The position numbers and the translations under genes were made by a program. The notes under the pieces were generated by a model. That model made no database searches. It saw only the letters and a list, made by a program, of their open reading frames with translations, and was not told the DNA's origin. 39,470 nt of DNA. Origin: Candidatus Magasanikbacteria bacterium RIFCSPLOWO2_12_FULL_43_12. GTDB taxonomy: Bacteria > Patescibacteriota > Patescibacteriia > Magasanikbacterales > UBA922. Positions 1 to 11,060 of this stretch are shown piece after piece (within the stretch, counting starts at the first letter, position 1; every line of letters begins with the position of its first letter). The stretch is from assembly GCA_001783065.1 (NCBI GenBank), contig MFQN01000028.1:1-39470 (forward strand), in the 5' to 3' direction.

Positions 1-78
1 CATACGAAAGTAAATTGGACATATTGTATACATGGGTTAAGTGAATAAAAGTTATTCTATTATCCCATTTACACAAAA

Positions 79-84
79 TATTAT
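79..84 (+). promoter_or_regulatory. Possible -10 box before the structured region
   Basis: TATTAT lies at 79-84 in an AT-rich stretch, about seven bases before the GC-rich structured region begins near 91. No convincing -35 box sits at the usual distance. This is a weak call, supported mainly by the abrupt change in composition just downstream. Confidence 0.25.
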
Positions 85-90
85 ACAGAC

Positions 91-935
91 TCTCGTGCGT
101 GGCTGGGGTGTCATCAGGACACCACGCCAAGCAAGCACACACTATTGACAGTAGTATGCTGACACAGATATACTGGACTATAATGAGAATAAGACCAGTA
201 AGTTGATGTCAGATTGGAGGGGAGAGCACGTAGGGGATGCCCTCCTGCGACAACCTTTGCGAATGCGTGTGTTCCCCGCATTTTCACCAGCCACCCTTGC
301 CGAGACGCAGACGGCGCGCTGGTGGATCGACGGGGGAGACCCGAGATCCAGTGACGCGTGTGTTCCGCGCCCGGCATGGCCCAGTGATCGCTGGGCCGAG
401 TCCTTGGGTTTCCCCAACCCAGACCCTGTGTCAGACCGGCGGCTGGGTGCCATCAGTCCAGAACAGGGACATCAAACAAGAGAACCCATATGGAACTGGT
501 ATCACAAAATATATCAGCAATAAGCCGATTATAATGAATCAACTGTGAGGCTAGGCGGAACCTGTTGAGGAGCGGGTTTGGCCACCTAGTGTGACCAAAC
601 AATGGAACACACTAGAAAAGGCGAAGTTCACCCGATATGACCGACGCAACCAAGCCTCTCAGACTGATTACACCGATCAAGTCATGGTTGACCTTCCATT
701 TCCTTCGGGGCACACGGTTCCCGCAGAAAAAATCATACGACCTCAGCAGAGCATGTCAAGATCCGTTCACGCAACACCCGAAAAACGCAGCAGAAAAGCG
801 TCACGAGAGAACCACACAGCCAAGACTGCTGCCTTGAGAATCGTCGGCGTCTACCGTTTCTGACCACTCTTTGGCAAGCAGCATCGTCGTCGCCACCTCG
901 GCCATTGCCATCGGGCATCCCGACTCAAAATACTT
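91..935 (+). ncRNA. Candidate large structured RNA or long secA leader
   Basis: No reading frame here looks like a protein, yet the region is clearly richer in G and C than its surroundings and full of complementary segments. Helices visible by eye include 107-112 with 118-123, 159-164 with 207-212 enclosing 171-176 with 195-200, 285-291 with 318-324, 378-384 with 391-397, 405-410 with 416-421, 424-429 with 463-468, 559-564 with 573-578, 586-593 with 608-615, 647-652 with 685-690 enclosing 662-668 with 676-683 (one bulged base), and 787-793 with 826-832. The 11-mer GCGTGTGTTCC occurs twice, at 264 and 354. No RNase P, tmRNA, SRP, rRNA or group I/II intron signature is recognisable. No terminator is seen before secA, so the RNA may be a leader of that gene. 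Strand is inferred from the orientation of secA. The 3' limit is a guess. Confidence 0.45.
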
Positions 936-986
936 AACAAGGTGACGCACGTGTCTCGTTCGATGGTCGTCTACTTGCGCCCGCTT

Positions 987-3710
987 ATGTCATTTTTAAC
1001 TAAAATCTTCGGTGATTCGAATGTTAAAACACTGAAAACACTTCAGCCTGTTGTTGGCGCGGTAAATTCGCTTGAGGCGGAAATGCAAGCGTTTTCTGAT
1101 GTTGAATTGAAAAATAAGACTGTTGAGTTTAAAGAAAGATTGGGAAAAGGCGAGAGTTTGGATGATTTATTGACGGAAGCGTTTGCGGTTGTCCGTGAAG
1201 TCTCAAAACGCGTTACCGGCATGCGTCATTTTGATGTACAGTTGATTGGCGGTATTGCTCTGCATCGCGGTATGATCGCGGAAATGCGCACCGGTGAGGG
1301 CAAGACTTTGGTCGCGACTTTGCCGATCTATTTGAACGCTTTGCAGGGTAAAGGTGTGCATTTGGTAACAGTGAATGATTATTTGGCCAAACGTGACGCG
1401 GTTTGGATGGGAAAGATTTATGATTTTTTGGGATTGAGCGTCGGGATTATTCAAAATTTGCGTGTCTCTTATAAATATGATTCAAGTGTTCAAGCTGAAG
1501 TCCGAAGTCTGGATGCTGAAGTCCAAAAAGAAAGTTTCAAAATTGAAGAAGAATTTTTGCGGCCGTGTTCAAGACAGGATGCGTACAGGTGCGATATTAC
1601 TTACGGGACTAACAACGAGTTTGGTTTTGATTACTTGCGCGACAACATGGTCCAGAGTTTGGAAGAAATGGTGATGCGGCCGGGTGATGAGATGCATTAC
1701 GCGATTGTGGATGAAGTTGATTCCATTTTGGTTGATGAAGCGCGCACGCCGTTGATTATTTCCGCGCCGGCGGAGGAGGCGACCCAACAGTATTATCAGT
1801 TTGCCAAATTAGTCAGGCAATTAGTGGAAAATAACCCTTCGGATCCCTCAGGGCTGGGAGATTATAATGTTGATGAAAAAATGCGCAGTTCCACCTTGAC
1901 TGAAGCGGGGATCGCGAAATTTGAAAAATGGCTGGGGATAGAAAATATTTACGCGGAAGGCGGAATTCGTACCGTGCATCACGTTGAACAGGCGTTGAAA
2001 GCGGAAGTTTTATTTAAACGAGATCGTGATTACATTGTTGATAATGGCGAAGTGATTATCATTGATGAATTTACCGGCCGCAAGATGCCCGGCCGGCGTT
2101 ATTCCGAGGGTTTGCATCAGGCGATTGAAGCAAAAGAAAATACTAATATTCAACGCGAGTCGCAGACTTTGGCGACAATCACTTTTCAAAATCTATTCAG
2201 AATGTATCGCAAGTTAGCCGGCATGACCGGAACAGCGTCAACTGAATCCGAAGAGTTTGCTAAAATTTATAATCTTGAAGTTTTAATTGCTCCCACTAAC
2301 AAACCTGATCGAAGAGTTGATTTGCAAGATCGAATTTATCGGAATGAAGCAGGCAAATACAAGGCGATCGCGGAGAGAATTAAAGAGTGTCAGACAAAAG
2401 GCCAGCCGATTTTAATCGGCACGATTTCAGTTGAGAAGAATGAGGCGTTAAGTGAATATCTAACCGGTAATGGAATTAAGCATGAGATTTTAAACGCTAA
2501 AAACCATGAACGAGAGGGGGAAATCATCGCTCAAGCCGGCCGTCCTGGCGCTGTCACTTTGGCAACCAACATGGCTGGCCGCGGTGTTGATATAAAATTG
2601 GGCGGCGCGTTAGCCGCTGGAGAAGAGCATGAGAAAGTGGTTAAAGCGGGCGGTTTATTTGTGTTAGGCACGGAACGGCACGAATCACGCCGTATTGACA
2701 ATCAGTTGCGCGGTCGGGCGGCGCGTCAGGGTGATCCGGGCGAGACGCAATTTGTTGTTTCCACCGATGATGATTTGATGCGTATTTTCGCCGGCGATCG
2801 TTTGAAATCAATCATGACTCGGCTAAAAGTTCCGGAAGATATGCCGATTGAGCAAAAAATGATTACCAAGATGTTGGAAACCGCGCAGAAAAAAGTTGAG
2901 GGGCATAATTTTGATATCCGAAAACATTTGTTGGAATATGATGATGTTTTAAACAAGCATCGCGAAGTGGTTTATAAAAAACGGCGGCAAGCGCTGGCGC
3001 CAACAACTTCATTGAAAGAAATGATTTTAGATTTGATTGAACAGGAAGTTGAATTCGTGGTATCATTCCATACGAATGTTGAGGATAGAAAAGAATGGAA
3101 TTTACAAGAAGTTTACGAAACCGCCAGCACAATTTTTCCTTTTTCAGACGTGGAAAAAGAGGAGTTGTTAAAAATGAATACAAGCGGCGATACTAAACTG
3201 GAAGATGTTGAAGCGCGTGATAGTATTGTCAAATTTTTCTTGTCAAAAGCCGAGCGTGAATATGAGGCGATTACAAAACAAGCAACAGATGCGGCTGGAA
3301 ACGAGGCAGCTGGCGCGAAGTTGATGCGGGATTTTGAAAAAAATATTTTGTTGCGCTCAATAGATAGTTTGTGGGTTGACCACCTTGTTGCCGTAGATTA
3401 TCTGCGCACCGGTATTGGCTTGCGAGGTTATGGCCAGCGCGATCCATTGGTTGAATATAAAAAAGAAACCTACCAGATGTTTAACGCGCTGTTGTCCGGC
3501 ATCCAGAAAGAAGTGGTTTATAGTTTTTACAAAATCGGCGCGGGATTGAGGTTAATATCCGCCCCGCAATCAGTTATGGCCAATGACAAATTAGTTTTGA
3601 AAGGCGCGCAAAAGGCCGCTGACGACGCTGTTGGTTCTGTTTACAGCAAGCCACGTGATGATTCTGGAAACAAAATCGGTAGGAACGATTCGTGTCCGTG
3701 TGGGAGTTGA
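987..3710 (+). CDS. secA: Preprotein translocase ATPase SecA (C-terminus cut by TGA)
   Basis: SecA is the ATP-driven motor that pushes unfolded preproteins through the SecYEG channel at the membrane. Walker A TGEGKT is at residues 102-107, the Walker B stretch DEVDSILVDEARTP starts at 242, and TGTAS and GRGVDIKLGG of the second motor domain follow. An extra charged segment of about 40 residues (161-199) lies between the first motor motifs. The ATG at 987 is preferred over an in-frame one at 942, because the family's conserved N-terminus (MSFLTKIFG) begins there and the extra 15 codons belong to the GC-rich leader. The frame stops at a TGA at 3708 after CPCGS. The next codons spell KKYKKCHG, the expected rest of the zinc finger, so one base has turned a glycine codon into a stop. 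The product is 907 residues. Confidence 0.95.
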   Translation: MSFLTKIFGDSNVKTLKTLQPVVGAVNSLEAEMQAFSDVELKNKTVEFKERLGKGESLDDLLTEAFAVVREVSKRVTGMRHFDVQLIGGIALHRGMIAEMRTGEGKTLVATLPIYLNALQGKGVHLVTVNDYLAKRDAVWMGKIYDFLGLSVGIIQNLRVSYKYDSSVQAEVRSLDAEVQKESFKIEEEFLRPCSRQDAYRCDITYGTNNEFGFDYLRDNMVQSLEEMVMRPGDEMHYAIVDEVDSILVDEARTPLIISAPAEEATQQYYQFAKLVRQLVENNPSDPSGLGDYNVDEKMRSSTLTEAGIAKFEKWLGIENIYAEGGIRTVHHVEQALKAEVLFKRDRDYIVDNGEVIIIDEFTGRKMPGRRYSEGLHQAIEAKENTNIQRESQTLATITFQNLFRMYRKLAGMTGTASTESEEFAKIYNLEVLIAPTNKPDRRVDLQDRIYRNEAGKYKAIAERIKECQTKGQPILIGTISVEKNEALSEYLTGNGIKHEILNAKNHEREGEIIAQAGRPGAVTLATNMAGRGVDIKLGGALAAGEEHEKVVKAGGLFVLGTERHESRRIDNQLRGRAARQGDPGETQFVVSTDDDLMRIFAGDRLKSIMTRLKVPEDMPIEQKMITKMLETAQKKVEGHNFDIRKHLLEYDDVLNKHREVVYKKRRQALAPTTSLKEMILDLIEQEVEFVVSFHTNVEDRKEWNLQEVYETASTIFPFSDVEKEELLKMNTSGDTKLEDVEARDSIVKFFLSKAEREYEAITKQATDAAGNEAAGAKLMRDFEKNILLRSIDSLWVDHLVAVDYLRTGIGLRGYGQRDPLVEYKKETYQMFNALLSGIQKEVVYSFYKIGAGLRLISAPQSVMANDKLVLKGAQKAADDAVGSVYSKPRDDSGNKIGRNDSCPCGS

Positions 3711-5025: not shown

Positions 5026-5098
5026 GCCGAGATAGCTCAACTGGTAGAGCAGCGGTATCGTAAACCGCAGGTTGTGGGTTCGATTCCCATTCTCGGCT
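5026..5098 (+). tRNA. tRNA-Thr (anticodon CGT)
   Basis: A complete cloverleaf can be drawn. The acceptor stem GCCGAGA (5026-5032) pairs with TCTCGGC (5091-5097). The anticodon stem GCGGT/ACCGC (5052-5056 with 5064-5068) closes a seven-base loop ATCGTAA whose central CGT (5059-5061) reads ACG threonine codons. The T arm GTGGG/TTCGATT/CCCAT is also present. The 3' CCA is not encoded, so it must be added enzymatically. Confidence 0.95.
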
Positions 5099-7768: not shown

Positions 7769-8458
7769 ATGTATATTTTTCTTGACGAAAGCGGGCAATT
7801 TCATAAAAATCATTCTGACAGCTATTTTGTAATTGGTTCTTTTACAATTGGCGATACCAAGAGGACGGCAAAAAGATTCAAATCGTGGTGTCGCTCAAAG
7901 TTTCCCAAAAAAATACGTCGGCAATCCGAAATCAAGTTTTCTGATTCTGGGGTCACTGATAAATTAAGATTAAAAACCATAAAATATATCTGCAATCTTG
8001 ATGTAAGGATTAGATTTAGTTTTATAAAAAAGGAAAACATTCCATACGAATACCGCACGAAGACAAGTGTTGAGAGTGGACTTCTATATACATCAATAGT
8101 TGGTGAGACACTGGAGATGTATCTGCCGACCAATGATTTGTTGTTTCATGTTTTTTGCGATCAGCGTCCGCTCAAGGGCATAGGCAGGAGAGAATTTGTA
8201 GAAAAAATCAAAACTCACCTTTTGCCTAATTTGCCAAAAGGCGGACATGTAAAAATAGAAATGGTTGATTCTAAAGAGTATCAAAATATTCAAATTGCTG
8301 ACTGGGTGGTGGGTGGATTGGCTTGTTATTTAAATAAAAGGCATTTGGGAAAAGAAATTTTTAGTTTGTTAAAAAATAATATTATTGGCGAAGGCAAGGA
8401 GATGTTTAAGGACTATTGGGAAAATAAATATAACAAAAAACCTAATCGGCAAGATTAG
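7769..8458 (+). CDS. DUF3800 domain protein
   Basis: This 229-residue protein begins YIFLDESGQF, the hallmark of DUF3800, a family predicted to have an RNase H-like fold. Further acidic positions fit the same active-site plan: the D in FHVFCDQRP (about residue 130), the E and D of KIEMVDSKEYQNIQIADWVV, and the following WVVGG. DUF3800 genes occur mostly in accessory regions and near mobile or defence genes, but no biochemical role is firmly established. Its stop codon lies inside the right arm of a terminator hairpin, so the gene forms a single-gene unit. Neighbours on both sides are non-syntenic in character (tRNA, gene remnant), which suggests an insertion hotspot. Confidence 0.8.
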   Translation: MYIFLDESGQFHKNHSDSYFVIGSFTIGDTKRTAKRFKSWCRSKFPKKIRRQSEIKFSDSGVTDKLRLKTIKYICNLDVRIRFSFIKKENIPYEYRTKTSVESGLLYTSIVGETLEMYLPTNDLLFHVFCDQRPLKGIGRREFVEKIKTHLLPNLPKGGHVKIEMVDSKEYQNIQIADWVVGGLACYLNKRHLGKEIFSLLKNNIIGEGKEMFKDYWENKYNKKPNRQD

Positions 8459-8467: not shown

Positions 8468-8663
8468 TGAAGCAGCGTCTTACGGAATGTAATCTCCAGC
8501 TTAAGCCCCGAGACACTCGGGGGAACACTAAAGCACTCCATAAGTTATTATTGCATGCTTCGTTTCTATTATAAGATAATCTTTTGTGTTTGTCAAGTTA
8601 TCCACAGCATTAGATAAAAATAGTGTAAAATAAGGTAAAAAGATGGTTTAATAATATTGAATT
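8459..8663. other. Intergenic stretch with a GC hairpin and a DnaA-box sequence
   Basis: The stretch contains a perfect 7-bp stem CCCCGAG/CTCGGGG (8506-8512 with 8516-8522) without a T run. TTATCCACA (8598-8606) is the consensus DnaA box. TAAAAT at 8626-8631 is a possible -10 for the PAP2 gene. There is no coding potential. One box alone does not make an origin. Confidence 0.4.
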
Positions 8664-9235: not shown

Positions 9236-9445
9236 ATGGAAGGGACAGAAAAGATCTTTAGTGGGAAGAGCCGAGATGATGTCGATGCGCAGTTCAGGAG
9301 GTTCTTGGATAGCGCCCCGACCGATGTGTGGACTCTCGGTATGGAGTACAGAGAACCGGATAACGAGTCCGGACAATGGCAGTTGATTTTCAACTTCCAT
9401 ATCACCTCTGTCGAGGATCCATGCACTGTCACAGCGCGCAAGTAG
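9236..9445 (+). CDS. Hypothetical small protein, 69 aa
   Basis: I do not recognise the product, a soluble acidic protein of 69 residues (MEGTEKIFSG...). Evidence that it is real comes from its signals: a consensus promoter at 9172, a strong Shine-Dalgarno GGGAGG (9221-9226), which is rare in this window, and a downstream hairpin plus terminator at 9580. Base composition is more GC-rich than neighbouring genes. The segment DVWTLGMEY...GQWQLIFNFHI suggests two amphipathic beta strands. The layout matches that of the other small unit at 10656-11089. Confidence 0.6.
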   Translation: MEGTEKIFSGKSRDDVDAQFRRFLDSAPTDVWTLGMEYREPDNESGQWQLIFNFHITSVEDPCTVTARK

Positions 9446-9488
9446 AAAGTAGACCACATGCAGCCGGAATCTAAGGTGGCGCGACGCG

Positions 9489-9557
9489 AACCTCGCTCGC
9501 CCACCTGCTATGGGGTTGATTTTCAACTTAATAGCAGGGAGGAACGCGAGCGAGGTT
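9489..9557 (+). ncRNA. Long GC-rich hairpin downstream of the 69-aa gene
   Basis: AACCTCGCTCGC (9489-9500) pairs perfectly with GCGAGCGAGGTT (9546-9557). Inside this, CCTGCTAT (9504-9511) pairs with ATAGCAGG (9531-9538), and GTTGA (9515-9519) with TCAAC (9523-9527). The nested stem spans 69 bases and lies between the small gene and its terminator. It could be a stable RNA element, a protein-binding site or a mobile palindrome. Confidence 0.55.
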
Positions 9558-9579
9558 TAAATCGTGCTGAATGTTTAAT

Positions 9580-10688: not shown

Positions 10689-10696
10689 ATTTTCTC

Positions 10697-10762
10697 AACT
10701 CACCCCCCCCTCTCCACAAAAGAAATAAATTTCTGCTGTGGGGAAGGAGGGGAGGGGGGGTT
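10697..10762. repeat. GC-tract palindrome
   Basis: A left arm rich in C (AACTC followed by C8 and TCTCCACA) mirrors a right arm rich in G (TGTGGGG...GGGGGGTT). At the centre is the perfect inverted repeat AGAAAT/ATTTCT (10721-10726 with 10729-10734). A similar but weaker C-rich/G-rich pair lies at 25703-25756, so this may be a second dispersed repeat type. Confidence 0.6.
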
Positions 10763-10789
10763 GTGGTGTGGGGTCACAGGTTGGATTGC

Positions 10790-11017
10790 TTACTTGAGTA
10801 TCTGGGTGCCTTTCTTGAGGATGCGGGTTTCTTTGGCAGTGAACATGTGGGGGCGTTCGTGAGGTATCTGTGTCCTCACGATGCGTGGTTCTCTCCGGTG
10901 AGTCGCGGTAGAGCCTTCGCGAGCTGTTACGATTTTGGCGAGGATTTCTCGATTGCGTTCGCGCAGGTCTTCTCCCCTCCAGCCGCGGGGCGCACCTTTT
11001 GACAGTTTTTCTATCAT
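10790..11017 (-). CDS. Hypothetical small basic protein, 75 aa
   Basis: I do not recognise this 75-residue, strongly basic, arginine-rich protein (MIEKLSKGAPRG...). It has good expression signals: a consensus promoter on the same strand at 11061-11089, and AAGGAG six bases before the ATG, one of only two strong Shine-Dalgarno sequences noticed here. It also has a small hairpin (CCGCC-TTT-GGCGG, 11031-11043) in the leader and a terminator at 10656-10688. The high positive charge would suit binding to nucleic acid or the ribosome, but this is a guess. The frame could be extended to 11113, but that would run through the promoter, so the shorter form is chosen. Confidence 0.6.
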   Translation of the reverse strand: MIEKLSKGAPRGWRGEDLRERNREILAKIVTAREGSTATHRREPRIVRTQIPHERPHMFTAKETRILKKGTQILK

Positions 11018-11060
11018 GACACACTCCTTACCGCCAAAGGCGGATTGTTGAGATGTATGA

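Follow-up and report, generated by a model that had tools for sequence, protein, structure and literature searches.

Known large structured RNAs and the locus upstream of secA

To our knowledge, few structured RNAs of very large size have been described, and for most of them the function is still open. Among the large ornate RNAs of bacteria, ROOL and GOLLD are carried by phages and prophages, in many cases close to tRNA islands, and are supported by covariation; OLE associates with its OLE-associated proteins, OapA among them (PMC12286853). DIMPL-type searches have yielded candidate structured non-coding RNAs from long intergenic regions that are GC-rich in genomes otherwise rich in AT (PMC8723152, PMC6429828). 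A literature search found no paper on very large structured RNAs in Patescibacteria.

The locus described here lies at the start of contig C28 of a MAG from an uncultured groundwater bacterium, a member of Candidatus Magasanikbacteria (Patescibacteria), whose genome of 1.05 Mb is in 34 contigs. The whole stretch analyzed (C28:1-39470; 39,470 nucleotides) is referred to below as the window. The region between the contig start and secA is laid out as follows.

1-92, minus strand: end of an insertion sequence, with terminal GAGTCTGTATAATATTTTGTGTAAATGG; the contig breaks within the element.
93-724, minus strand: candidate structured RNA of ~630 nt, 5' end at ~724 and 3' end at or beyond 93 (z = -6.5; no coding periodicity).
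145-174, plus strand: promoter-like TTGACA-18-TATACT (11/12 consensus positions), converging on the minus-strand RNA and pointing toward secA.
690-921, no strand: unstructured non-coding spacer from the minus-strand promoter to secA (z = +1.4/+1.7 over 690-935).
732-759, minus strand: putative promoter of the candidate RNA, TTGACA (759-754), 16 nt, TATGAT (737-732), with 11/12 sigma-70 consensus positions.
922-984, plus strand: 63-nt block conserved in a same-genus genome, with Shine-Dalgarno AAGGTGA (939-945), start GTG at 951 and peptide VSRSMVVYLR, in frame with the SecA ATG at 987.
951-3710, plus strand: secA (Pfam SecA domains on 942-3707), its start placed from the Shine-Dalgarno sequence; the usual SecA start is the ATG at 987.

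The candidate resembles ROOL, GOLLD and OLE in size class, helix density, stand-alone non-coding character and a function not set by the neighboring frame. It differs from them in that bases 1-1100, searched on both strands, matched no Rfam covariance model, whether at the gathering score or with E allowed up to 10, which bears out the initial impression that no known RNA class is present; a known class was rejected on this ground. Nor does the candidate share the phage, prophage and tRNA-island setting of ROOL and GOLLD. Ten window proteins scanned with Pfam are chromosomal (SecA, FtsX, GreA, ABC transporters and others), with no phage gene seen among them; the nearest tRNA is at window position 5026, with none within 4 kb of the region, and no tRNA or tmRNA was found inside it. 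OapA-type proteins were not among the ten scanned, the upstream neighbor lying beyond the contig end. By the covariance models, and for ROOL and GOLLD also by setting, the candidate is not ROOL, GOLLD or OLE. It bears the same signature as the DIMPL-type candidates, namely a long non-coding gap of raised GC content in a genome rich in AT; those classes, however, rest on comparative alignments, whereas the candidate is a single sequence. A structured RNA of the same genome, DUF3800-V (RF02964; 72.9 bits), maps at 8468-8562 on the minus strand, directly downstream of the DUF3800 gene (7769-8458) and facing it, but this is a 96-nt known motif unrelated to 93-724.

The region is non-coding and folds beyond chance

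The preliminary description had proposed a large structured non-coding RNA at 91-935, with no believable protein, raised GC content and nested helices, and had considered that it might be a long regulatory leader for secA. Frame length, periodicity and profile searches agree that the region is non-coding. Its longest stop-free stretch is 122 aa, against a median of 102 and a 95th percentile of 161 in shuffled sequence, and its 3-base periodicity is 0.43, compared to 2.9-26 for genes of the window. All longer frames on both strands were without matches in Pfam, PHROG and NCBIfam; together with Rfam, these are the collections in which a significant match to a known protein or RNA was looked for, and none was found. 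Three frames compared by tblastn with plasmids were likewise negative, and a hidden or decayed protein was rejected on the strength of these searches. GC content reaches ~64% within 201-500 (0.64 at 201-400) compared to a window mean of 41%. The helices named at the outset are all present: 159-164 (CTGACA) with 207-212 (TGTCAG), 171-176 (TACTGG) with 195-200 (CCAGTA), 647-652 (CAACCA) with 685-690 (TGGTTG), and 662-668 with 676-683, the last with one bulge.

To allow for the uneven GC content of the region, shuffling was done in blocks of 100 so as to preserve local dinucleotides, and folding energies were compared with those of the shuffled sequences. The predicted RNA from 93-724 folds far better than its shuffles on both strands (z = -6.5 minus, -4.9 plus), with 0 of 100 shuffles as good on either one. 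The signal is weaker over 93-935 (z = -4.3 plus, -4.6 minus), and 690-935 folds worse than its shuffles (z = +1.4 plus, +1.7 minus). Thus, the extent first proposed stands for ~93-700 and fails for 690-935; bases 1-92 are the end of an insertion sequence. The non-coding structured element itself is upheld; the strand is not the expected one, the stronger fold being opposite to secA. The predicted 93-724 fold contains 30 G-U pairs on the minus strand versus 17 on the plus strand, and such pairs cannot be kept by the opposite strand. When the 5' end of the predicted minus-strand RNA is varied, z is best at 700-724 (-6.7, -6.4) and drops to -4.3 upon extension to 800. A plus-strand transcript of 181-935 gives z = -2.3.

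The putative minus-strand promoter would place the start of the RNA at ~724. On both strands of the region together, 0.01 sites matching at least 11/12 consensus positions would be expected, in a promoter search that was guided by the region; the plus-strand site at 145-174, of equal quality, tempers the claim for a minus-strand RNA. No intrinsic terminator is listed at the 3' side. The 3' end probably lies at or beyond 93, hidden by the insertion-sequence end.

Predicted anatomy of the candidate minus-strand RNA

Helices of the predicted fold, mostly at pair probabilities of at least 0.87, are listed from the 5' side; all are on the minus strand.

638-679: 5' hairpin of 15 + 4 bp, 679-665/652-638 and 664-661/657-654 (mean pair probability 0.95 and 0.92).
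267-612: long-range helix closing the core, GUGUGUUCC (612-604) with GGAACACAC (275-267) (p = 0.98 in the ensemble).
576-600: predicted hairpin 600-591/585-576.
424-468: predicted hairpin 468-424.
378-397: hairpin GGCCCAG/CUGGGCC (p = 1.00).
298-376: branched arm, 376-372/302-298, 371-364/311-304, 358-354/319-315, 350-345/328-323 and 343-340/334-331 (p = 0.88-0.99).
100-245: predicted 3'-side run of hairpins, 245-221, 210-161, 160-134 and 129-100.
161-210: nested hairpin, 210-206/165-161 around 200-195/176-171, the pair named earlier (p = 0.96, 1.00).
100-129: last hairpin before the insertion sequence, a possible 3' end, with no T-run after it (p = 0.99).

A second copy of GGAACACAC, at 366-358, sits in a 15-nt near-repeat (plus strand) and can pair with the same GUGUGUUCC segment at 612-604. 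Forcing this copy as the partner costs 2.7 kcal/mol (-262.1 versus -264.8). With two GGAACACAC copies equally good as partners for the one GUGUGUUCC strand, the modeled fold suggests, with less support than the helices themselves, that the core may switch between two conformations.

The insertion sequence and the wider genome

The sequence of 1-92 recurs at the end of contig C24 of the host genome and at two contig starts (C12, C4) of genome G016. The flanks differ each time, so the border at 92/93 is exact. From the resemblance of its end, it may belong to an IS256/Mutator-like family. That the structured region might be part of the insertion sequence was rejected, the other copies carrying other flanks; a group II intron, prompted by a GTGCG at the border, was dropped for lack of an Rfam match. 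Lying at the 3' side of the candidate RNA, the insertion sequence may have trimmed it.

A second, different insertion-sequence end (CATTTACACAAAAATATTGACACACTC) adjoins a GC-rich frame elsewhere in the host genome (G000:C14:1-100). Another host contig starts with a transporter-like ORF of ~60% GC and 462 aa (G000:C4:317-1705), which probably came from a GC-rich donor. Within the window, short, orphan-like GC-rich frames are found at 9236-9445 and 10695-11024 (~51-53% GC versus 41% for the genome), and a long imperfect inverted repeat (AACCTCGCTCGC ... GCGAGCGAGGTT), terminator- or MITE-like, lies between two genes at ~9486-9558.

Searches for relatives

The structured element is known as one copy from one MAG. 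No copy of the structured part was found elsewhere in the host genome, and blastn revealed no relative among phages and plasmids and, the secA-adjacent block aside, none in 46 family, 86 order and 381 class genomes (overlapping sets with one genome per species, so that close strains are not covered). Single-sequence covariance models of 93-250, 296-470 and 572-724, weak at long distance, matched only the window itself when run against 315 class genomes. Three short matches were rejected: a 21-nt hairpin shared exactly with two viral contigs and a 22-nt match in genome G021, neither of which extends, and an 18-nt match in two viral contigs that lies in unrelated sequence.

The secA side

The last 63 nt (922-984) are the sole part of the region to recur, in one congener. 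In this same-genus genome, G002 (Candidatus Magasanikbacteria JACRPD01), the block is found upstream of secA (95% identical) and upstream of tsaD (90%), each time directly after an insertion sequence. The block is therefore present before secA in two species, one of which also has it before tsaD, always near an insertion sequence; with its Shine-Dalgarno and start codon, it has the look of a translation start that was duplicated or is mobile. The idea that VSRSMVVYLR might be an arrest peptide in a secA leader was rejected: before tsaD the block is out of frame with tsaD, and the peptide diverges after LR. Inspection by eye showed a TTGCAT-17-TAGACT spacing in both copies of G002; the host genome does not preserve it.

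As RNA, the block shows no unusual fold (925-1000, z = +0.6), and the upstream DNA of secA in the family members read is ordinary and AT-rich, with nothing resembling the structured region. For these reasons, the structured region is not a conserved secA leader. More generally, the suggestion of a long regulatory leader was not supported: no plus-strand structure adjoins secA, as the nearest 250 bases are unstructured; the opposite strand has the stronger fold; and the minus-strand promoter sits at the structure boundary.

Weighing the explanations

We regard the minus strand from 724 to 93 as a candidate free-standing, highly folded non-coding RNA of ~630 nt, with a probability of roughly 0.5. 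The main evidence for a minus-strand RNA is the agreement among the structure boundary, the strand preference and the promoter. It is read as free-standing, and not as a secA leader, because the minus-strand signal is the strongest and peaks at starts just downstream of the minus-strand promoter. The finding of no homologue and of no terminator at the 3' side speaks against an RNA, and so does the well-folded plus strand, as hairpin-rich DNA would show the same. The last point is also among those favoring a horizontally acquired, GC-rich mobile-element fragment (an origin, a recombination region or a decayed end, for example), rich in DNA hairpins and without RNA function in the host. Such a fragment would fit a GC content far above that of the genome, the abutting insertion sequence, the GC-rich foreign genes elsewhere (as in G000:C4:317-1705) and the lack of a relative in close genomes. 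However, the fold favors one strand and begins at a promoter on that strand, and no phage or plasmid similarity was seen beyond the viral-contig hairpin match of 21 nt; we hold this origin possible, though unlikely. That the fold is a chance excess in ordinary intergenic DNA seems scarcely tenable: 1 of ~80 control windows in the same sequence also reached ~-5.9, but none of 100 shuffles keeping local composition equaled the fold across the 630 nt of either strand, and several independent parts contribute.

A plus-strand secA 5' untranslated region running from the promoter at 145-174 and regulating secA, perhaps paired with an antisense from 759-732, would account for that promoter and for a position directly upstream of the secA Shine-Dalgarno and start. 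It is distinctly improbable in view of the unstructured 690-935 interval (z = +1.4), the modest z of -2.3 for a transcript from 181, the dissimilar secA upstream sequences of family members and a conserved 63-nt block devoid of unusual fold. An assembly or binning artefact, with foreign DNA misjoined at a repeat beside the conserved secA block, could be imagined from a window that begins at a contig end within a repeated insertion sequence, from the single known copy in one MAG and from a composition unlike the rest. Yet the repeat is at the far end (1-92) and not at the secA join near 922, a search for a shared repeat at the 921/922 join found none, and the congener also diverges just upstream of the block and also has an insertion sequence there; we consider an artefact very unlikely.

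Proposed origin and significance

The candidate RNA would be transcribed from the minus-strand promoter at 759-732, away from secA, and act as a folded molecule, scaffold or regulator, like other large structured bacterial RNAs. Its core might switch between two folds through the alternative GGAACACAC partners, a step with less support. Its high GC content and absence from relatives suggest that the gene was probably acquired horizontally. The GC-rich foreign genes elsewhere make acquisition plausible but are just as compatible with a mobile-element fragment that has no RNA function. We find it rather doubtful that the locus represents a new Patescibacteria class of large (~630 nt) RNA, a two-state machine in which GUGUGUUCC at 612-604 would swap between GGAACACAC at 275-267 and 366-358, encoded by a horizontally moving gene. 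Being known from one sequence, it counts as an orphan candidate: a lead and not a class. Patescibacteria genomes are reduced, with not much DNA to spare. In a genome of 1 Mb, a structured RNA of 630 nt would, if transcribed, clearly be a candidate for a function.
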